The position numbers were made by a program, and so were the translations under genes. The notes under the pieces are model-generated. The model had not been told where the DNA came from. It made no database searches and saw only the letters and a list, made by a program, of their open reading frames with translations. DNA of 64,000 nt from Xiphydria camelus (taxonomy: Eukaryota > Arthropoda > Insecta > Hymenoptera > Xiphydriidae), in the NCBI GenBank assembly GCA_963678675.1, contig OY783198.1, forward strand, positions 1,121,001 to 1,185,000. Direction: 5' to 3'. How positions within the stretch are numbered: position 1 is the stretch's first letter; the number at the start of each line of letters is the position of its first letter. Of the stretch, positions 17,375-54,700 are shown piece after piece.

Positions 17375-17781
17375 GTTACTATGCGCCCAGGATGGACCTG
17401 AATTTTCCGCATTCAACGTCCTCCGTCTACGAGGACTCGAGGAGTTCCCAGGAGAACGCGTCGACGCGCGTGACCGAGAACATCGAGCAGGCGGGGGACG
17501 TCGCTATCCGTTACGACCAAACCGTGAGGACTGGTAACTGCAGGATAGTCAGGTCGATTCCGAATCTCATGAAACCCTTCAGTTGCCACAAGTGCGGTCG
17601 GTGCTTCATGGTCAAAGGCAATATGACGAGGCATCTGAACTATGAATGCGGACACGAACCAAGATTCCAGTGCCCCTACTGTCACATGCGCACTAAGCAG
17701 ACCTCGCCGATTTACATGCACATTCGGAAGAAGCATCCAGGAAAAGAAGTCTTCACGATCGACCTCAAGGCAACGGATTAG
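17375..17781 (+). CDS. lola: V21: lola terminal exon, tandem family
   Basis: 135 codons, longest linker of the family (about 70 residues, Ser/Glu-rich, with a MDLNFPHSTSSV start). F1 HKCGRCF with helix VKGNMTRH, closing NYEC; spacer GHEPRFQ; F2 CPYC, helix QTSPIYMH, closing HIRKKH; tail VFTIDLKATD. Near-identical to V22 and V23 including intron and 3' flank. AATAAA at 17875-17880. Confidence 0.93.
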
Positions 17782-18152
17782 TCGCGAAATAAGCATCTCG
17801 ATACTTCCGACATTCTCAAAATTCCCAAAATTTGTCTCCCCCTCTCGTCTGTTTGTACTGCGCTGAATTGTTCCAATAAAATTGCATGCACCTTCATCGT
17901 CGTCGGACGTTTACTCGGGGCGCCAGTCGTCGGCCAGGAAGACGTCCTACCTCTTGCGTCGTTTCTTTCAAGCGTCGACGGGAACTCCACGCTTTATTAA
18001 GAAGAAATGTCGCGAAATTCCTCTTCCTTTTCCACTTCCTCTCTATAGGAGGGCTTGGAAGGGCTCGCAGGTTGAACCGTCGAGTATCGAAACCTTTTGA
18101 TCCCGCGCATACGATTCCTCGAGACTAACGACCTTTGCTTTAACGCTTCCAG

Positions 18153-18559
18153 ATTACTATGTGCCCAGGATGGACCTGAATTTTCCGCATTCAACGTCCT
18201 TCGTCAACGAGGTCTCGAGGAGTTCCCAGGAGAACGCATCGACGCGCGTGACCAAGAACCTCAAGCAGGCGGGGGACGTCGCTATCCGTTACGACCAAAC
18301 CGAGAGGACTGGTAACTCCTGGAAAGTCATGTCGATTCCGAATCTCATGAAACCCTTCAGTTGCCCCAAGTGCGGTCGGTGCTTCATGATCAAAGGCAAT
18401 GTGACGAGGCATCTGAAGTATGAATGCGGACACGAACCAAGATTCCAGTGCCCCTACTGTCACATACGCACTAAGCAGACCTCGCCGATTTACATGCACA
18501 TTCGGAAGAAGCATCCAGGAAAAGAAGTCTTCACGATCGACCTCAAGGCAACGGATTAG
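18153..18559 (+). CDS. lola: V22: lola terminal exon, tandem family
   Basis: 135 codons, a few changes from V21: acceptor attactat, PKCGRCF, helix IKGNVTRH, closing KYEC. F2 keeps QTSPIYMH. Tail VFTIDLKATD. AATAAA at 18653-18658. Same 778-base period on both sides. Confidence 0.93.
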
Positions 18560-18930
18560 ACGCGAAATAAGCATCTCGATACTTCCGACGTTCTCAAAAT
18601 TGCCGAAATTTGTCTCTCTCTCTCGTCTGTTTGTACTGCGCTGAATTGTTCCAATAAAATTGCATGCACCTTCATCGTCGTCGGACGTTTACTCGGGGCG
18701 CCAGTCGTCGGCCAGGAAGACGTCCTACCTCTTGCGTCGTTTCTTTCAAGCGTCGACGAGAACTCCACGCTTTATTAAGAAGAAATGTCGCGAAATTCCT
18801 CTTCCTTTTCCACTTCCTCTCTATAGGAGCGCTTGGAAGGGCTCGCAGGTTGAACCGTCGAGTATCGAAACCTTTTGATCCCGCGCATACGATTCCTCGA
18901 GACTAACGACCTTTGCTTTAACGCTTCCAG

Positions 18931-19337
18931 ATTACTACGTGCCCAGGATGGACCTGAACTTTCCGCATTCAACGTCCTTCGTCAACGAGGACTCGAGGAG
19001 TTCCCAGGAGAACGCATCGACGCACGTGACCGAGAACCTCAAGCAGGCGGGGGACGTCGCTATCCATTACGACCAAACCGAGAGGACTGGTAACTCCTGG
19101 AAAGTCATGACGATTCCGAATCTCATGAAACCCTTCAGTTGCCCCAAGTGCGGTCGGTGCTTCATGATCAAAGGCAATGTGACGAGGCATCTGAAGTATG
19201 AATGCGGACACGAGCCAAGATTTCAGTGCCCCTACTGTCACCTGTGCGCCAAGCGGGCCTCGTCGATTTACATGCACATTCGGAAAAAGCATCCAGGAAA
19301 AGAAGTCTTCACGATCGACCTCAAGGCAACGGCTTAG
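18931..19337 (+). CDS. lola: V23: lola terminal exon, tandem family, altered F2
   Basis: 135 codons. Linker and F1 are nearly those of V22, but the F2 loop and helix start differ in a cluster: HLCAKRASSIYMH in place of HIRTKQTSPIYMH. Tail ends KATA instead of KATD. AATAAA at 19433-19438. Confidence 0.93.
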
Positions 19338-19699
19338 TCGCGAAATAAGCATCTCGATACTTCCGATATCCTCAAAATTCCCGAAATTTGTCTCTCTCTC
19401 TCTCGTCCGTCTGTACTGCGCTGAATTGTTCCAATAAAATCGCGTGCACCTTCATCGTCATCAGACGTTTACTCGGGGCGCCAGGAAGACGTACTACCTT
19501 TTGCGTCGTTTCTTTCAAGCGTTGACGGGAATTCCACGCTTTATTAAGAAAAAATGTCGCGAAATTCCTCTTCCTTTTCCATTTCCTCTCTATAGGAGGG
19601 CTTGGAAGGGCTCGCAGGTTAAACCGTCGAGTGTCGAAACCTTTTGATTCCGCGCATACGATTCCTCGAGACTAACGACCTTCGCTTTAACGCTTCCAG

Positions 19700-20100
19700 G
19701 TTACTATGCGCCTAGGATGGACCTGAATTTTCCGCATTCAACGTCCTCCGTCAACGAGGACTCGAGGAGTTCCCAGGAGAACGCGTCGACGCGCGTGACC
19801 GAGAGCCTCGAGCAGGCGGGTGACGTCGCTATCCGTTACGACCAAACCGTGAGGACTGGTAACTCCTGGAAAATCATGTCGATTCCGAATCTCATGAAAC
19901 CCTTCGGTTGCCCCAAGTGCGGTCGGTGCTTCACGGTCAAAGGCAACATGACGAGGCATCTGAAGTACGAGTGCGGGCAGGAACCGCGATTCCAGTGCCC
20001 CTATTGTGAATTTCGCAGCAAGCAAACATCCAACGTCATGTCTCACATCAGGACACGACACACCGGGGCTAGAGTTTACGTTGTTCACCTCAAGTATTAA
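19700..20100 (+). CDS. lola: V24: lola terminal exon, mosaic of two families
   Basis: 133 codons. Linker and F1 belong to the V21-V23 family (helix VKGNMTRH). From the F1-F2 spacer on (GQEPRFQ, FRSKQTSNVMSH, TGARVYVVHLKY) it matches V27 instead, at DNA level as well. The tail lacks TIDLKATD. No AATAAA nearby, and the 3' flank no longer follows the tandem unit. Confidence 0.93.
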
Positions 20101-27479: not shown

Positions 27480-28371
27480 TATCAGCAGGAGACTCTTCTG
27501 TGTCCTTCGATCAAGCGTCCCTCCCCTCTTGGGTCCGAGAATGATAAACCACGTCGCCTATAAATAATTTACGGGCATCCGGCCTGGGTGACTGTGAAAT
27601 ACATGTAATCACAAATGTTCGGTGACATAAAATTCGTCGATAACTAATGGTGGATGTCAAAGGATTTGTAACTACCTCTTTCTTTGGATTAAAGAAAATT
27701 ACTTTTTCGGCGTTTCGATAGCCAGCGCGTTCACGAGATTTAATATACCTATTAGACCCATACGTTTGATCTAAATGTCTTATAGACCTCGCTTTAGGTC
27801 GAGGTACGGATCAGTTCGCGCGGATGAAAATTGGCGTGTAGTCGCTCTTTATTTCGTGTTTCCTTTCATTCTCTTAATCTTAGGATGGTATTCGCTATCA
27901 GGAAACCAGTCAGGAATCATCGCTGGCATTCTTTTCCGGCTAGAACTTACCTTCACTGTACTTCCGACAAAGAGCAAATACGCGGCGTGTCCCCCCGTAA
28001 GATCATTAGTGTCGACGTGAGGCGTCATGTAATTTTGTCGATAGAGTACAATAAAGGTTTGGTTGGGGTTCTTTTGATGTTGTAATATATTGTATACGTC
28101 AAGAGTGGGGGAATGTTGCACGTGGTGGTTGTACGTCCGTTGTTTTTAGACGAACTTTCTTACATCCTTCCAAAGTAATGTCGAACGTTGGAGAGTGTAC
28201 TTAATCGCAAAGATCTCTTCCAACGATTGATAGAGAACGAGGTAAGCAATCGGAGCGAAAACCCTCGTCGTTCGTCGTCGCGGACTCTTCTTATTTTTAT
28301 TTTTTAATTGTCCCGCTTCACAATATTCCCGAGGATGGATTTTCATCTCTGCATTTTCTCGTTATTTTCAG
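27480..28371 (+). other. V31 3' UTR and V32 intron
   Basis: From about 28080 the sequence belongs to the V32-V34 tandem unit (gtacgtccgttgttt, tacatccttccaaagtaat). Before that nothing recognised. Confidence 0.5.
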
Positions 28372-32678: not shown

Positions 32679-33958
32679 ACACCCTCGGTAATTATTGTAA
32701 GTGTATCAACAGAGACTCGGTTTACAACGATCTCGAAATGAAACAACGTTTAAAGGGGATGAGAATTTTCGGATTAGAGTGCGCGCGCGCGTGTGTGTAA
32801 GTGAGTGAGTGTGTGAGTGTGTGTATGTAAAGGACGAAATTTTTTCACATAGAATTTTATCAATCGAATATTAGAGAATATGGGAAGAGTTGAACAAGGT
32901 TTCACCCTCTTATCAGTCATGTTGGAAACGAAGCGAATTATGGAACACATTTTTTTTCCCAAAAAGCTTTGTTTCCAGAAATCATTGAGGGAGTAAAACC
33001 TTAGGCTGCTGACTCAGCTGTTTAAATCAAATAAAGCGCTACGCAAATCTTATATCGAGGTCTGAAATGGATCTTTCTTTGTGAGATTCGATTCACGCGA
33101 AAGGATAATTTCAGGATCTTGAACGATAATGTATATTTACAATAAAGAGCATCAAGGGTCGGATGTTCGATCAACCGTTATGTGTAAATCACCTGAAAGA
33201 TTTTACATCTCGAATTTAACTTTGAAAATCCCTATCCCCCTGATCGTACCACGAGATCCCAGTCGTATCTCTGTAATCATAGCCCGTCGAATTTCTTAGG
33301 TAGCTCGTACACCTTTAATGGAAAATGAAAAGACTTTTACTTGTAAGTCAGCGATAATTAAGCCGAAGAATTCATTCGATTTATGCCTCCGTAATTTACG
33401 TAACTCTTTATCGTCGCATTGTACACCGCTCGATGCGGTTATAGAAGTAATTGATACAGGTATTCGTATATTCATATCGGGAACAGGTATAACACCGCGC
33501 GGTATAAGTGTATCACGATGTTTCATTTACTGATTTCTAAATAAATATATAATGTGTAAATATATGTGCCTGTCCATGTATACGTTGACCATGTTATAAT
33601 CGTAGCCTTGGCGCAATATGAGTCATTGATCAAATAATAAATTTTACATGAGGGAACAGAATTAATGACGCGGCTGGTTCCTTTCATTCCATTCATCAAT
33701 AACTTCTAATCGTAGCAGACCTTAAGCACTGGATTTAAAGTTTGCCGTGATATCTTTCGACGAATGATGGGCTTTATTTTTTCTCTGGTATAGTTCTCGT
33801 TTCAAGAAAATTTTCACGCTTGAAAGGTAATATTGCCAATGCTACCAAATGGCCGTTTCTCTTCCTCCGATCGGTTCTTTCTTTCTTTCTTTTTTTATAG
33901 ATTCTGCCCGATAAGATCTAGTTCCACCAGATACTAATAGACGTAAATTCTGTTGCAG
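32679..33958 (+). other. V37 3' UTR and V38 intron
   Basis: Contains an alternating purine-pyrimidine microsatellite (gc/gt)n at 32780-32826. A 71-codon open frame at 33318-33533 is AT-rich with no finger and no phase-matching acceptor; I do not call it a gene. Nothing else seen. Confidence 0.45.
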
Positions 33959-34338
33959 CTCTGCGGAAAGTGGATAAGCCCAAGAGACAACCGGTAGTTG
34001 CGCTGCAAAGGGTGGTTCTTCCGACTCTCAAGACTGCACCGGTGATTGGAAAATTATTACGCGCGAGGAAGGAACATCGTTCTGGAAAGTCTAAAGAGCT
34101 GACAAGGAGCATCAGGGAGGGATCTAACAATTGTCCCACCTGCGGCAAACTCTTCATGTCCTACAGACATTTAATGTCACATCGACATCGATACTGTGGC
34201 GTTGAAGCGAATATTATGTGCGGTCATTGCGCTTATCGCGCCAAACGCATGTGGGACATGAAGGTGCATCTTAACGGAGTGCACAGGATTAATAAGGACA
34301 ATTGCAAGATGAACAGGGATATTGTGAAGATCGGGTGA
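33959..34338 (+). CDS. lola: V38: lola terminal exon, V38-V40 family
   Basis: 126 codons. Basic linker of about 60 residues with KPKRQP and RARKEHRSGK, nuclear-localisation-like. F1 CPTCGKL, helix SYRHLMSH, closing HRYC; spacer GVEANIM; F2 CGHCAYRA, helix RMWDMKVH, closing HLNGVH. Tail NCKMNRDIVKIG. Nearest AATAAA at 34624-34629. Confidence 0.92.
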
Positions 34339-34835
34339 TCTTGATGAAACTGAAGATCCGCTGCTTTTTATTTTATTTAAAATTTATTTTTACATTATTC
34401 GATATAAAATTAGACTTCGCGCGCTCTTCTCTTTCCGAGGACACCACAGCTGAGTAGAAGCTGTTTATATATGTGATCGAAGAATGAGATTATATACTTG
34501 CTCTGTAGAATGTAAGAATAATACATACCTATGCACGACGCGACTTGGATGAATTTCTGATATCAAATAATCCCTGTCAAGAGCACAAACTAATTGTTTT
34601 AAGACTTTTTACTTCTTCCTTTCAATAAATTACACAAAGATACGAGATTCTCGAATTCTCTTTCCTACGGATCATTTAGTTTACGTATCATCTCCTCAAA
34701 ACTATGCAAGAATACTGTAGGTAAAATCTGACCCTTTTCTTCCAGTACTATCCGTATTTCCGATATCATGAAATCTCCGATTTTCATGCATTTCAGAGCT
34801 CGGTAGAGTCTAATCACTCGAAATTTTTGTTGCAG

Positions 34836-35248
34836 TCGTGGTGAAGTACGAGAACCAGTTCTTCAGTCAACCGATGATCCCTCTCGAGAGAGTGATGATA
34901 CCGAGCTACAGAACAACGACGGCAGCAGCGACAGTGAGTGGTAACAAGAGGAAGGGTGACCATGAGTGCTGGATTTGCGGAAAGTTCTTCATGACTTCTG
35001 CCCACTTGACTTCCCATATACGACGATACTGCGGCGTGGCGGCCAATATCGTGTGTTGCCACTGTAATTATCGCTCGAAACGCATGTGGAACATGAAGGT
35101 TCATCTCAACGGGGTTCATGGAATCAACAAACAGAATTGCAAGATGAACAGGGACATCGTGAAGATCGGCAGACACGAAGGGAGTAGAATATATCCTGAT
35201 GAACGTGCCCGTCCCGGTACGCGAAGGAGACGGAATGTATTGAAATAG
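34836..35248 (+). CDS. lola: V39: lola terminal exon, V38-V40 family, extended tail
   Basis: 137 codons. F1 CWICGKF, helix TSAHLTSH, closing RRYC; spacer GVAANIV; F2 CCHCNYRS, helix RMWNMKVH, closing HLNGVH. Same NCKMNRDIVKIG as V38, but it reads on for another 25 basic residues (ending RRRRNVLK) where V38 stops. No AATAAA found near. Confidence 0.92.
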
Positions 35249-35750: not shown

Positions 35751-36136
35751 TTCAAATACAGTTATCTCTTCCGAGTGTCGGGCTAGCTATGAGAGACGGT
35801 GAAGCGAGATACGAAATGTTCGCAGATATCGAGAATTTTTTGCGATCTGGTAAAATCAAGACGACGAGGAGGAAGGACAGTCACACCTGTGTCTGCGGCG
35901 AGACGTTCAATACTCGCATTCATTTAATTGCCCATCAACGAATAGCCTGCGACGTTTTGGCCAATACCGCGTGTTGCTATTGCGATCATCGCTCGAACGG
36001 CGAGTGGAATATGAAGGTGCATCTTAGCGGAGTGCACGGGATCAAAATACAATTCTGCACGATCGATAGGGACTTCGTACGAATGAACCGCGACGATGCT
36101 AATTTCGTTGACAATTATCGCAATGGATGTATGTAG
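35751..36136 (+). CDS. lola: V40: lola terminal exon, V38-V40 family, altered F1 knuckle
   Basis: 128 codons. F1 starts C-V-C-G, with one residue between the cysteines where V38 and V39 have two, then helix TRIHLIAH, closing RIAC; spacer DVLANTA; F2 CCYCDHRS, helix GEWNMKVH, closing HLSGVH. Tail keeps FCTIDRDFV (compare NCKMNRDIV). AATAAA at 36453-36458. Confidence 0.9.
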
Positions 36137-36965
36137 ATAGTCATAATTTTGACGATAAAAGTATCGCCATGCGACTATAATAATTTATTTTGCTCTTCGT
36201 TTCTTTTAATTAGAGAATTGATTATGATTTTTGGGTTTGGTGATGTTGATTTGAAATTACAGCAGGGAATAATACGCTCGACAAAGTTGATTGTGGTGAA
36301 GGTAAAATTCAAAATTGTAATTTTAGTAGTTATAACGTTATGAGAAGAAAATATGATAATATATCTGCGCTATAGAATTTAATCGATACGATTTCTTTAC
36401 TCATGTTTCTTATTCGTAATTTAAGAAAATAAGTTGAATTTGTGTTTTTTTCAATAAAGATGTTCGTGTGAATTTTCTTTCAGCTCTCGTTGTAATTTGA
36501 AATTGTAGTTCAGTAATTGCAACGTGAGTGTGAGGAATTGTTTTAGAATTTTTCAATGTCCGATTCGTCTTTCCTCCCACAGAGCATTGAGATTTCTTCC
36601 GGGCATCGAAATATTTAATGAATATTATTTTCGATGCGTGGAGAAAACTTTAATGTCTTTGGAAAATTCATGAGTCATTTGTACAAATTTTACGGCTACT
36701 TCGTACTGTCAATTTCCAGTTGAAGACCACCCCTTCTCTTCGAGTATCAATTGAGACTTCCAATAACATTAACACGACATTCTTGTTTACAGGTACTTCA
36801 CACTCGCAAAGAAGATACGGGCGCATAACTACGACGTGAAACTCAACAACCATTTAATCTCTTCGTAAGCCCATCCTCTCGGGGTTAGCCCTTCAGGATC
36901 GTTCTGGAGGCTGCATCGTCCACCAGAACTCATCCTTTCATCTGTTATTGTCCCATTTGTTTCAG
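36137..36965 (+). other. V40 3' UTR and V41 intron
   Basis: AT-rich. Acceptor-like sites at 36719 and 36792 lead to stops after 11 and 15 codons. Nothing else recognised. Confidence 0.45.
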
Positions 36966-37222
36966 GATGGTTCTCAGAGCAGTTCGATTGGAGTCATCAT
37001 ACCTACTCCAGGATAAATGCACGTGGACGGAAGCCCATGAAACGCAAACCCGAAGATATTGCGCGAGCGATGGAGGCGATCAAGCAAGGCATGTCTTTGA
37101 GGAAGGCAGCCGCTACGTTCTCCATTCCAAAATCGGTGCTGCATCGGTATAGCAAAACCGAAATGCCGCGCTTCGCCAGGATCTACGTGAAGAAGCTGGG
37201 CGATTGCTCGAAATGGACCTAG
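36966..37222 (+). CDS. lola: V41: terminal exon with Pipsqueak/CENP-B-like helix-turn-helix
   Basis: 85 codons after acceptor cccatttgtttcag, in the same splice phase as the finger exons. No C-x2-C finger. Residues 30-63 read as an HTH: EDIARAMEAIKQ, then MSLRKAAATFSIP, then KSVLHRYSK, the pattern of psq domains and of HTH regions of pogo/Tigger-type transposases. Preceded by basic ARGRKPMKRK (AT-hook-like and NLS-like). AATAAA at 37381-37386. Likely a DNA-binding tail on Lola BTB that uses a different fold. Inference: captured from a transposase or a psq gene. Alternative: an unrelated gene fragment, less likely given phase, strand and position. Confidence 0.78.
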
Positions 37223-37742: not shown

Positions 37743-38338
37743 GTGCCGCGGCCAAGGTTCAAAAGGGGCCAAGCGTCATGGCCTTCGACTGCGACGAATC
37801 GTCGAACATGATTACCGTGAAGCAAGAGCCCGTAAATCAGAACATGATCGTTATTGATGATGAGATTTCGAACGTTAGTGACAACGACGTTCTGGTCGTC
37901 ATTAACGACGAGGATACGATCGTCATCGATGACGAAGATACGGACGATAGTGACAACGGGAAGCCGATTGTCGAAGGTGGCGATACGATTGTGGCCGATG
38001 ACGAAGATACGAATGACAGTGACAACAAGAAGCATATGGTGGTCGATGACGAAGAAGTTCAAGATCCCGCGAAACAGTCGGGCGAGAGTTCACGCCCGCG
38101 TTTACGGAATTCCTTGCGGCTGAGAGAGAGAGCCAGGAGATCTTTGAGAGAGAAAAAGGAATCACGCCTCCCTGGTCCCTCCTGTCGTAGAACCAAGAAT
38201 GGAAGAAAGGGCAAGAAGGGACGAAAATTGACACGGAACTCTTCCAGCAACGAAAGCATGTTCTCTTGCATGCTCTGCTCTTACAAGTCTCCTCGGCAGA
38301 ATATAGTCAAGTGGCACATTTTGGGGGCACATGCGTAG
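37743..38338 (+). CDS. lola: V42: terminal exon with SUMO-interacting-like repeats and one C2H2 finger
   Basis: 198 codons. Residues 20-105 are acidic with hydrophobic cores followed by acids: MIVIDDE, VLVVINDED, TIVIDDED, MVVDDEE, the form of SUMO-interacting motifs, plus VKQE, a SUMO acceptor consensus. A repeat DDEDTxDSDN occurs twice. Residues 115-170 are strongly basic. At the very end a single finger, CMLCSYKS, helix RQNIVKWH, closing HILGAH. No F1. AATAAA at 38745-38750. Inference: a SUMO-dependent regulatory isoform. Confidence 0.85.
37910..38050 (+). repeat. Coding minisatellite in V42, ~69-base unit
   Basis: The strings gatgacgaagatacg and agtgacaac recur with the same spacing, giving two adjacent degenerate copies that code the acidic DDEDTxDSDN repeat. 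Confidence 0.8.
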
Positions 38339-39552: not shown

Positions 39553-39845
39553 ACTCCTCACGAATGTTGGGCTACATGAACTGTCAGAGGATTACGTATC
39601 CTTGCAAGAATTGTGGCAAAGTCTACAACTACCATTCAAGCCTGGCGAGGCACCTGAAGCACGAATGCGGAGTCGAGCCAAAGTTTCAGTGCCCTCTGTG
39701 TCCCTACAAAACCAAGCACAAGTCCAGCCTGAACACACATCTAAATGGACGGCACATGAAGCTGATGAATGAGTTCTACGCTATGTCGAATGGTTCCGGC
39801 CATTCGATTTTGGAAAACAACGACAACAGCGGACATTTTCCATAA
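39553..39845 (+). CDS. lola: V43: lola terminal exon, two fingers
   Basis: 97 codons after a tttttttcag tract. F1 CKNCGKV, helix YHSSLARH, closing KHEC; spacer GVEPKFQ; F2 CPLCPYKT, helix HKSSLNTH, closing HLNGRH. Neutral tail of about 30 residues rich in Asn, Ser and Gly. From here on F2 is usually CxxCP with SSL-type helices. AATAAA at 40385-40390. Confidence 0.92.
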
Positions 39846-44874: not shown

Positions 44875-45410
44875 TAAAACTGTTATTGGTGCTTTTATCT
44901 CGATGCCACACGCGTTCCTCGCGAAAATCGTTATAGTTCAAACTCTTCCTTCTAGTTCTATTTTTATACTTTTCAACCGAAGAGGCTTTTCTCTGGACTT
45001 TCGTGTATAATGAACTTGATATTCTATCGTTCTATTCCTCCTTGTAAATCGAATATGATAATTCGAGTTTCTCTATTGTAACTATAGAAAGTGAAGTAGA
45101 TCCTGACTTTGGAAGAGATATTTTGACCGGAGTTCAAGGTGGATTGAAACAACCTGTCATTGTAGTTTTTTCATATACTTGTTATATGGTTTCGTAGCAA
45201 TGCAGAAAAAAATGAATGACTACGTCAACATTCTTATAGAATTAAAAATATAAATATAATCAATATTTACTAGAGAGTAAATTCTACGTTTTACTTTAGA
45301 ACTTCTCCAACGATTGAAAATCTTATCGCTTGAAAACGTATGACCCATGATTATTTCCTATTTGGTAATTGAATGCTTTTCAAAGCGATCTTTTGATTTG
45401 TCTTTTCCAG
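44875..45410 (+). other. V48 3' UTR and V49 intron
   Basis: Nothing recognised beyond the V49 tract tttgtcttttccag. Confidence 0.5.
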
Positions 45411-45868
45411 GTCGACCAAGATTCCAGTCCACGTCCAGATGGGATCTGCCACCGCTTCCGATGACTATGTTGCCCCGTCAAGATCTCTCAGTGAGGCGAC
45501 TTCGCTCCATGACGAACGAGGCATTAGGTATCGATACCAAGATCTGCGGTTGGGGTCCTCGCAAGTACCTTTGTCCGGAATGTGGAAGGACCTTCGCCCT
45601 CAAGGCTTCCTTATCCCGACACAGGGACTTCGAATGCAACGAGGATCTCCATAAAGTCAAGAAGCAAAGCCCAGAGACATCCGCAAATCAACGGAAAATG
45701 AAAATGCACGCTTGCCCGAGGTGCAACAGATCTTACACCCTGGTCACGTCGCTATGGAGACATCAACATTACGAGTGCGGCATCGAGCCCAAGTTCACCT
45801 GCGTAATTTGTCGCGTCAGATTCGCCCAGAAGAGTAATCTCGATCGTCACGTACGCAGGCGTCATTAA
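45411..45868 (+). CDS. lola: V49: lola terminal exon, three fingers
   Basis: 152 codons. After a 50-residue linker come two C2HC fingers and one C2H2: CPECGRT, helix LKASLSRH, closing DFEC; then a 24-residue spacer; CPRCNRS, helix LVTSLWRH, closing HYEC; spacer GIEPKFT; CVICRVRF, helix QKSNLDRH, closing HVRRRH at the stop. The extra first finger is an F1 type, so F1 was probably duplicated within the exon. AATAAA at 46284-46289. Confidence 0.92.
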
Positions 45869-51246: not shown

Positions 51247-51695
51247 TAAGCAGGACTCGTCTAGAATGCCGAACAAAAATTTATTGCAAACATGGGAGAA
51301 AGATAATATTTTATATATATATACACTACGTGTATAATTAAAATAAAGGTGTCTACGGAACGTTCCGATCACCTCTTCGGACGAATATTGGATTGCGTTA
51401 GTTCGTACACTTACTTTCTACTTTATGAGAATAAAATCTTGTCGGGAACAGGATCCTCTGCGATTACGCAATTTTCTGCGCAGATTTTGTCGTAAAGATA
51501 CTCTTCAAATAAACTGACGTTCGGAACAATGTGATAGATACCCAAGGTCCTGATGAAATTCTTTCTTATTCGTATCCATTCCTTTCCCTTTTCGCCATCG
51601 ATGAAGCAGTACATTTTATTAAACCCATCTCGACTAACGACATCTTTACGTCCATATGAACTAAAATTCATCCTCGATCTTTCCTTCTGTTTCAG

Positions 51696-52159
51696 AATTG
51701 CAAGGCTGGAATGCTACTGAATACACGACGACCACCTACAATTCATCGAACGCAGTGATCGCGCCTTGCCCGCTAGATCAGACACCACCAGCCGAATCGG
51801 ATTTCGAAAAGTATCACAAGCCATCCAAGTCCCAAGCTACATCGTATTCCGTCCAGTCGCCATACAAGAGACATGTGTGCGTCTTCTGCCGTAACGTTTA
51901 CCCCCTGAAGGATCTCTTGAGCAAACATATACAATTTGGCTGCTTGATGAATCCAAGACGCTCCCAATTCGCCTGCAGTTTCTGTTCGTACAAGAGCACG
52001 TACAAGGCGAACATGAAGAGGCACGTGTATAACGTACACGATGCCGGGACCATGAGATTTCGCTGCGAACTCTGTAGCTTTCGCAGTAATTACACTTCCT
52101 GCGTTCGCAGGCACATGAACACCTTCCACAATAACTCTGGGGATTCCACCATACAGTAG
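51696..52159 (+). CDS. lola: V57: lola terminal exon, three fingers
   Basis: 154 codons. Linker of about 60 residues, Thr/Ser/Pro-rich. One C2HC (CVFCRNV, helix LKDLLSKH, closing QFGC), then two C2H2: CSFCSYKS, helix YKANMKRH, closing HVYNVH; and after a short spacer CELCSFRS, helix YTSCVRRH, closing HMNTFH. Here it is F2, not F1, that was doubled, unlike V49. No AATAAA found. Confidence 0.92.
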
Positions 52160-52777: not shown

Positions 52778-53645
52778 AATCGGTCGTACATTCAAATTGT
52801 ACTTAAGCTATATTTGTAAGACATTCTTTTGTGGTTCTTTTTTCTCTCACTTCTTCAAGGAACATTCGTTGATGAACATAGACAATTATAAGGTATGTTC
52901 GCGTTGCACACATGATTTCACTGAATTTTAATAAAGATATATGAACACTACACACAAGAAAAGAAGCTATTCCTTCTTTTTATTAACAAATCACTATTTG
53001 TCTCATCCGAATTATGTATAATTGCGGTTTCTTCGAGGACTTAGGATTTCAGGAAATAATACACTCGCGATATGAGAGTAAATGATTTTTGTTACAGGAT
53101 CGATTGTCGAGTCATAAGTTTCGAAGTATAAAAAATAAAATAATTATCATTGACGACGGATATTTTTTTAGCACGGTGTTTCGTAATTAGAGAATTCTGA
53201 AAAATCTTGAATTCTTACAAAATTGTATGAGTTATGTAAAATTAGGGCAATTAAATATTTTTGGGGCTTTTTTATGGTAGATAAATTAAGGAATCTGGAA
53301 GATACTCTAATGAATACATTTTTATTTTTCTTCAACAGTAATTATCTTTTCTACCCATCACACAGACGCTTGGACCGTATTCTTATTCGATCACTGCAAC
53401 ATCGATTATTCAGCTCTATTATTAATTTATTACTTTCTCTGTTGTTTTAAATCATCATACGAGTATATGTAAAGTTTTTCATTTGAGCAGGTGATTGCTG
53501 TTAATCTTGCACTGCACTTTTTTTTCCAATAGCACACTACCAGGATCGGGAAGGAATCGTTATTTCAACAATTTTCATGAGAACGACTAGATTCTCGATG
53601 ACGGAATTGATTCGCTCAATTGACGATCGACGATATCTGTTGCAG
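52778..53645 (+). other. V58 3' UTR and V59 intron
   Basis: AT-rich; short open frames without fingers. Nothing recognised. Confidence 0.5.
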
Positions 53646-54700
53646 AATCCTACTTGGAGGAAGGATCCAAACCGGGAGACGCGAGTTTCGAAATAGTCAC
53701 CCCCGAAGATAATACACCAGATGTTTCTACCGAGAACATAGAAATGCTCGATCCTGAAATAGAGAGCCAAATAGCCATCGAGCGAGAGGTGATAGTAGGG
53801 GAAGCAGAGGAAGATAAAGATGGAGAAATAGAGGAATACCTGTTGAGCGAAGAAGAGTTGTCTAAACAAATATCCAGACAGACGTGCGGGCAGACGTCGG
53901 AACGAAACTTTGCGAGCTTCAACAATGAGAAGATGCCTGACTCGGAGCCGGAATCGACTACGACCCTTTTCGACGTTTCGAAACAAGGCGAGATTACCTT
54001 CAGAGACAGCCAGAAGTACGCTCTCAGCCACCGAGGCTCTATTTATTCTTGCGAAAGGTGCGGAAAGAGCTACACTTGGGCTACTTCCTTGAGTCGCCAC
54101 CGAAGAAAGTGCAAAACGCGAAGGAGCGCGCCCTTTTCAACAGATTTGGTGGCTCACATAGAGATGGAGATGCCAAAGGAGCCTTCAGTCGTCGAGCATC
54201 GATATGCTTCCACCTCCAAGATCGATGTCAGCTTTCGCGAGGTGATCGCCAAATACAAACCACGCTTCAGAGAGCTACAAAAGTACGTCTCGACTGACGG
54301 GGTATACAAATGTTGGGACTGCGGCAGGTCCTACTTATGGGCTTCTTCCTTGTCTCGTCATCGCACTATAAAATGCGGGCCAAAAAATAAGAGGAAGTTC
54401 GTTTGCAATACCTGTTGCTACAGAACCGGTTATAAAGGCAATTTCATTAGGCATCTGAAATCTCCAAGACATATTATTATGAATAGTACCAAGGAGAGGA
54501 GAAGAACAGTTGAGCGGGCCGAAATGCTGCAAGAAGAGGACGAGGAGGATGAGGAGGAGGAGGAGGAGGAGGAGGAGGAAGAGGAGGAGGAGGGAGGAAA
54601 AGAAGGAGGAAAACGAGCAGGAGATGGTAGAGGAAGAAGAAGAGGGTTGGGAGGAAGGATTAGAAGAAGTAGAGGGATTCGAAGAGGTGGAAGGGAGTGA
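53646..54700 (+). CDS. lola: V59: longest terminal exon, three fingers, acidic ends
   Basis: 351 codons. An acidic N-part of about 90 residues (TPEDNTPDVSTENIE; EREVIVGEAEEDKDGEIEEY), then CERCGKS, helix WATSLSRH, closing R-R-K-C; a 75-residue spacer; CWDCGRS, helix WASSLSRH, closing TIKC; then CNTCCYRT, helix YKGNFIRH, closing HLKSPRH. The first two fingers are internal duplicates. A Glu run from (GAG)n (54540-54595) is followed by Gly/Arg-rich sequence in this frame; the +1 frame stays acidic to 54710, pointing to a one-base G insertion near 54594. AATAAA at 55150-55155. Confidence 0.88.
54540..54600 (+). repeat. (GAG)n trinucleotide repeat in V59
   Basis: Nearly pure GAG/GAA codons, ending in gagggagg, where the reading frame appears to slip by one base. 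Confidence 0.9.

Follow-up and report, generated by a model that had tools for sequence, protein, structure and literature searches.

The lola gene of Xiphydria camelus very probably possesses an alternative 3'-terminal exon (V41) whose product would comprise a BTB domain, a linker and a single Pipsqueak-type (psq) helix-turn-helix (HTH) domain instead of zinc fingers. V41 was found within the window, i.e. the whole stretch of 64,000 nucleotides that was analysed (C22:1121001-1185000 of a 357-Mb genome), in an array whose other exons were recognised by their finger pattern. The exon, its signals and its neighbours occupy the following window positions:

35751..36136, plus strand: V40, the 5' neighbour, with one finger-pattern match; first finger degenerate, below the Pfam cut-off
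36942..36965, plus strand: polypyrimidine tract and AG acceptor of V41 (ctgttattgtcccatttgtttcag), with 12/15 pyrimidines and free of AG over the preceding 12 nt; phase 2
36966..37222, plus strand: V41, very probably an alternative 3'-terminal coding exon of lola; frame open, hub junction codon GGA (Gly)
37019..37036, plus strand: basic ARGRKP stretch 5' of the HTH, seen in translation
37046..37165, plus strand: HTH_psq domain, residues 27-66, from the Pfam match, the genome scan and the AlphaFold2 helices
37381..37386, plus strand: AATAAA, candidate poly(A) signal 159 nt 3' of the V41 stop
37743..38338, plus strand: V42, the 3' neighbour, with an acidic repeat, a basic stretch and a single finger-like motif below the Pfam cut-off
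39553..39845, plus strand: V43, a good two-finger lola exon, 72-88% identical to proteins P0012 (Neodiprion), P0013 (Venturia), P0007 (Acromyrmex) and P0009 (Anthophora)

Translated in the frame of its acceptor, V41 was open and consisted of 2 nt, 84 codons and a TAG stop, giving a peptide of 84 aa (WFSEQFDW...ARGRKPMKRKPEDIARAMEAIKQGMSLRKAAATFSIPKSVLHRYSK...CSKWT-stop). The acceptor (TATTGTCCCATTTGTTTCAG|GATGG, with TTTCAG|GA at the boundary) was strong and also passed a stricter acceptor test. When 68 plus-strand finger-pattern ORFs and V41 were evaluated by a simple acceptor score, the best-scoring acceptor was in phase 2 in 55 of the 69, V41 among them, against about one third by chance; some ORFs with the best acceptor in another phase contained a phase-2 site too. 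Strong acceptors occurred at 3.2 per kb on the plus strand and 1.8 per kb on the minus strand, and within the V41 ORF only one further strong acceptor, in a different phase, was present 5' of the HTH core. The coordinates, strand, frame, peptide, acceptor and array splice phase proposed for V41 in an earlier sequence-only reading were thus borne out by translation and acceptor scoring. A further possible exon upstream, at about 36794, was rejected by eye, as it contains an in-frame stop when read in the array phase.

Other elements of that reading stood in part. V41 does lie between V40 and V42, on the same strand and in the same phase, but these two are poor finger exons, both below the Pfam cut-off. 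The AATAAA attributed to V41 is present; it is nevertheless weak evidence, because AATAAA or ATTAAA occurred within 1.2 kb in 66 of the 69 array ORFs. The basic ARGRKP stretch precedes the HTH as described, but it was conserved as such in none of the three relatives of V41 identified below (from Ampulex, Acromyrmex and Anthophora), and was therefore rejected as a conserved element. As for the surroundings, V40 adjoins the similar V38 (33922-34338) and V39 (34814-35248), which gives these exons the look of tandem copies, and an imperfect inverted repeat of 27 nt with a loop of 17 nt is situated between V40 and V41 (36585-36655). Elsewhere in the window, four closely alike finger exons spaced by 769-778 bases (17375-20100) apparently represent a recent tandem duplication, and three ORFs (45344-45868, 51665-52159 and 53624-54700) each contained three finger patterns as against the usual pair, the last being an open frame of 358 aa.

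Pfam assigned residues 27-66 of V41 to HTH_psq (PF05225) with an E-value of 4e-11 and 42.9 bits (cut-off 20.4), by which a chance match is excluded, although the model itself is of imperfect specificity (matches in 4 of 14 control genomes, above cut-off in one). The domain was recovered by a genome scan with HTH_psq at C22:1158046-1158165. The runner-up, HTH_23 (0.0042), and all the remaining models were below their own cut-offs. The psq-type HTH shape suggested earlier was hence confirmed by the HMM search, whereas the label 'CENP-B-like' did not hold as a family assignment and was rejected: CENP-B_N (PF04218) was unlisted for V41 at E <= 10, in a search whose HMMER filters drop most matches above approximately 0.1. 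Among 2094 stop-to-stop ORFs of the window (at least 20 aa, six frames), no other V41-like ORF was detected, the next best E-values being 2.8 with V41 as query and 0.9 with a profile of V41 and its Ampulex relative. The window contains 12 further non-finger ORFs that have a strong acceptor in phase 2, several of them overlapping finger exons in a different frame; none had a Pfam match at E <= 0.1. A scan of viral contigs for V41 relatives yielded 18 pattern matches and no relative.

The AlphaFold2 model of V41, built on an alignment of two sequences only, predicted three helices (residues 28-39, 44-51 and 55-63) arranged as an HTH fold, and pLDDT averaged 84-88 across the blocks that span residues 31-60; overall pLDDT was 60.6 and the ends were of low confidence. 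When the model was compared with the PDB by Foldseek, the HTH of LCoR (2COB) came first (probability 0.97, E 0.22) and that of Distal antenna (2ELH) third (E 0.79), with no match at E 0.001 or better. Sequence searches of the PDB produced only weak matches, namely 2ELH at 0.056 in one search and 2COB at 0.076 in another, where the designed helical barrel 9S1T (0.012) ranked higher and 2ELH was unlisted.

The common exons of lola were located by tblastn of the flanking DNA, using the lola isoforms of Neodiprion (P0012) and Venturia (P0013) as queries. The BTB start exon lies at C22:1057985 on the plus strand; it begins MEDDQQFCLRWN (TTK-type, FxLRWN), and all 58 of 58 residues, with the motif FCLRWN, were identical to Venturia. 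Further matches to the common region start at C22:1059418, 1059948 and 1060557 on the same strand. The last common exon, i.e. the hub (C22:1066101-1066238, plus strand), terminates at CAA G|GTAGGC with the first nucleotide of a codon. When the hub is joined to V41, the GA of V41 completes GGA (Gly), and the resulting frame (...AHRDSQ-G-WFSEQFDW...) is open to the V41 stop. The 334 kb examined contained a single lola BTB and a single hub tail, the other BTB match belonging to a neighbouring gene on the minus strand. Altogether, 136 plus-strand ORFs with at least two finger patterns were present 3' of the hub (C22:1078386-1253642), and none occurred on the minus strand in the whole 334 kb. The view that the array belongs to lola was upheld by the BTB, common and hub exons upstream on the same strand and by a hub phase that fits V41. 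V41 itself has what marks a 3' exon of lola: the same strand, a location 3' of the BTB and common exons, a single hub, and an acceptor in the shared phase.

Homologues of V41 were present in other Hymenoptera. With V41 alone as query (E <= 0.01, 2 candidates), one protein was found, the predicted Ampulex compressa KM043_007675 (P0002) of 99 aa, which stands alone with a homologous psq domain (64% identity to V41 over 56 aa). A second search, with V41 and finger exons near it combined into a chimeric query, returned 10 proteins at E <= 0.001 from 121 candidates, including two BTB-containing lola isoforms and two proteins with HTH_psq. One of the latter, P0007 (313 aa), comes from the ant Acromyrmex charruanus and is named 'LOLA3 protein, partial'; the other, P0009 (277 aa), is 'Longitudinals lacking protein, isoform G' and comes from the bee Anthophora plagiata. 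The exon that the sequence-only reading had proposed to look for in other insect lola loci is therefore found in ant and bee proteins named lola. The HTH_psq scores of the three relatives were 48.3, 40.4 (P0007) and 28.5 (P0009) bits, and the motif KSVLHRY was common to V41 and all three.

In both P0007 and P0009, a finger exon is followed by psq and then by the orthologue of V43. The best window match of their first finger exon was an ORF at 28308, with 32-35% identity; since no clear counterpart adjoins V41, the order is shared on the V43 side only. V43, 2.3 kb 3' of V41, was 72-78% identical to the variable exons behind BTB in P0012 and P0013, and is, on this sequence identity, orthologous to the exons that these two annotated lola isoforms, of Neodiprion and Venturia, join to BTB. 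V41 was less conserved than V43 (44-64% identity between the relatives and the window). In the predicted proteins of Vespula (P0005) and Xylocopa (P0008), V43 follows directly on a finger exon and psq is lacking, perhaps owing to predictor choice or to real absence. When V41 was compared with proteins of 266-847 aa (12 candidates), none was found at E <= 0.01, and hence no BTB-V41 protein; this negative is weak, because P0007 and P0009 fall in the same size range and were likewise not returned.

Two other psq-bearing regions were observed near the start of lola. The first is a second psq exon of lola itself (psqA; C22:1061579-1061961, L007:579-961, plus strand), located outside the window among the common exons (HTH_psq 7.5e-7, 29.2 bits, cut-off 20.4). 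Its acceptor (CGTTACAG|GT) is in the same phase, and joining the exon to the common exon that ends at C22:1060737 leaves the frame open. The predicted product is a short BTB-psq isoform that lacks the hub exon. The second is a BTB gene with psq repeats on the minus strand (C22:1029.0-1044.3 kb; L013, L011), apparently head to head with lola. Its psq repeats lie at C22:1029.0-1029.8 kb, three psq stretches being visible in one ORF, and its TTK-like BTB matches at 1043.8-1044.2 kb. By these marks, the gene is taken as pipsqueak; in Drosophila, lola and psq are adjacent (PMC4339196, PMC3503823).

The relationship of V41 to other psq domains was assessed in a tree of 46 rows and 46 columns (after a duplicate, L060, was dropped). 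It comprised V41, its three relatives, psqA, pipsqueak repeats 2 and 3, and 40 of the 150 listed HTH_psq places of the genome (150 of 649 candidates scored), hand-chosen per score group, of which 39 remained without the duplicate. V41 and its relatives formed a clade with a UFBoot support of 99 against 39 sampled genome psq domains, psqA and the two pipsqueak repeats; these relatives were chosen by their similarity to V41 or its neighbours, and the tree is without other psq domains from Ampulex, Acromyrmex and Anthophora. When compared with V41 by phmmer, the relatives scored 61.1, 38.4 and 31.3 bits, followed by the genomic domains L054 (24.7) and L047 (22.1), pipsqueak repeat 3 (21.0) and psqA (11.6).

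As for the origin of the domain, two scenarios were considered, both compatible with V41 being an exon of lola. The first is capture from a pogo-type transposase (DDE_1 plus HTH_psq) inserted in the array. At least 150 HTH_psq places exist in the genome, many of them multicopy with long open frames. L054, the closest in-genome domain by score among those compared, belongs to a family of 10 equal-scoring open frames of 596 aa, whose product combines DDE_1 (2.1e-18) with HTH_psq and is therefore a pogo-type transposase. In the tree, L054 together with L055/L059 was sister to the V41 clade, but with a support of only 50 and in a sample of only 40 of the 150 listed places, and pipsqueak repeat 3 scored little behind L054. 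HTH-Psq factors in general are said in PMC10027918 to derive from pogo transposase. On the other hand, the flanks of V41 were not repeated within the 334 kb and contained no plausible terminal inverted repeats, only two imperfect hairpins, so that a recent transposon insertion is unsupported. Capture is possible and agrees with the sequence data, yet it falls short of being probable.

The second scenario, which we consider unlikely, is local duplication, either of the neighbouring pipsqueak or of lola's other psq exon. Both putative sources are close at hand, the pipsqueak-like gene adjoining lola and psqA lying inside it. However, pipsqueak repeats 2 and 3 and psqA grouped apart from V41 (the other pipsqueak repeats are outside the tree). 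An origin of V41 as a duplicate of psqA was rejected on this separate position and on the low score of psqA, and descent from pipsqueak repeats 2 and 3 was unsupported by the tree. A broader scenario is conceivable, albeit somewhat doubtful: pogo-type capture would have brought the psq class into the array, once or more, as a phase-matched exon in the ancestry of ants, bees and Ampulex, separately from the other psq exon of lola, and a hexamer-forming BTB hub would choose between two unrelated DNA-binding classes, besides more than 100 finger exons.

V41 might also not be joined to BTB at all. In that case it could be a small gene of its own, or else an exon, internal or trans-spliced, that is under its own promoter, and would encode a short HTH protein. 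This might be indicated by the Ampulex relative, annotated as a stand-alone protein of 99 aa, and by P0007 and P0009, where the predicted psq segment lies internally, flanked by finger exons, and BTB is missing (P0007 being partial). Variable exons with their own promoters are described for Drosophila mod(mdg4) in PMC12692577. Against this, the first in-frame ATG of V41 is residue 24, in the basic stretch just before the HTH, so that a stand-alone product would have 61 aa, and the acceptor and phase of V41 fit the hub exon; we regard such a gene as improbable. A decayed or chance ORF, for which the moderate divergence among species and the atypical neighbours V40 and V42 might speak, can practically be dismissed, given the HTH_psq match, the intact frame, the clade support of 99 and the presence of KSVLHRY in all four sequences.

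We retain V41 as a very probable 3'-terminal exon of lola, which would be spliced in vivo, bind DNA and have a regulatory role. A model of its action can be proposed, based in part on lola biology. According to the model, splicing, whether in cis or in trans, would connect the hub exon, about 92 kb upstream, with one of the many two-finger exons or with V41, the latter giving a protein with a TTK-type BTB, the common linker and one Pipsqueak-type HTH. The BTB would form multimers, both among its own copies and together with other Lola isoforms, and the weak single HTH domains would in this way be clustered on DNA, by analogy with what is thought for the BTB-psq factors Pipsqueak and Bric-a-brac; clustered sites might be bound by such HTH subunits alone or mixed with finger isoforms. 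The choice of V41 would then bring in another class of DNA-binding domain while the oligomerisation module remained unchanged. Since similar domains occur in lola of an ant and a bee, DNA-binding proteins of two classes can probably be produced from one gene.

Should V41 be joined to the BTB hub by splicing, lola would exchange the class of its DNA-binding domain and not only the fingers, and HTH and finger subunits, all from one gene, could come together in a TTK-type BTB multimer. V41 also represents a test case for the entry of a domain into an array of alternative exons. Given its phase, position and homologues, existing genomes can serve to decide between transposase capture and duplication of a host domain.

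Isoforms of lola are usually described as zinc-finger variants, and BTB-psq proteins are already known as a kind. In the openly licensed papers searched, a set without the original Drosophila lola isoform papers, no description of an HTH or psq exon in lola was found. The general anatomy found here, i.e. one hub followed by many alternative 3' coding exons (136 two-finger ORFs in our case, a number of the same order as in the Nasonia expansion), is the same as in Nasonia, where PMC5000498 gives one hub with over 180 alternates and 181 observed introns over 325 kb, and in Apis, with 58 introns over 200 kb from one hub (PMC5000498). V41 differs from these published hymenopteran exons in coding for an HTH_psq domain; the words psq, pipsqueak and helix-turn-helix are absent from the main text of PMC5000498.

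Among natural DNA-binding domains, the HTHs of LCoR (2COB) and Distal antenna (2ELH) were among the best sequence or fold matches of V41, but they belong to different proteins, the scores are weak, and neither protein is known to possess a BTB domain. Pogo-type transposases, which are multicopy in this genome (L069), share the HTH family with V41 and supplied its nearest in-genome domain by score among those compared. In contrast to them, V41 lacks DDE, shows no terminal repeats and is a phase-matched exon of lola, and the support for kinship was only 50. The neighbouring pipsqueak-like gene has three psq stretches, the two tested of which group apart from V41. A parallel in architecture would be the BTB-psq factors Pipsqueak and Bric-a-brac, since the same TTK-type BTB and Pipsqueak-type HTH would be combined if V41 is spliced to the hub; in those factors the combination is built into a dedicated gene, whereas in lola it would arise by exon choice and with one psq domain.
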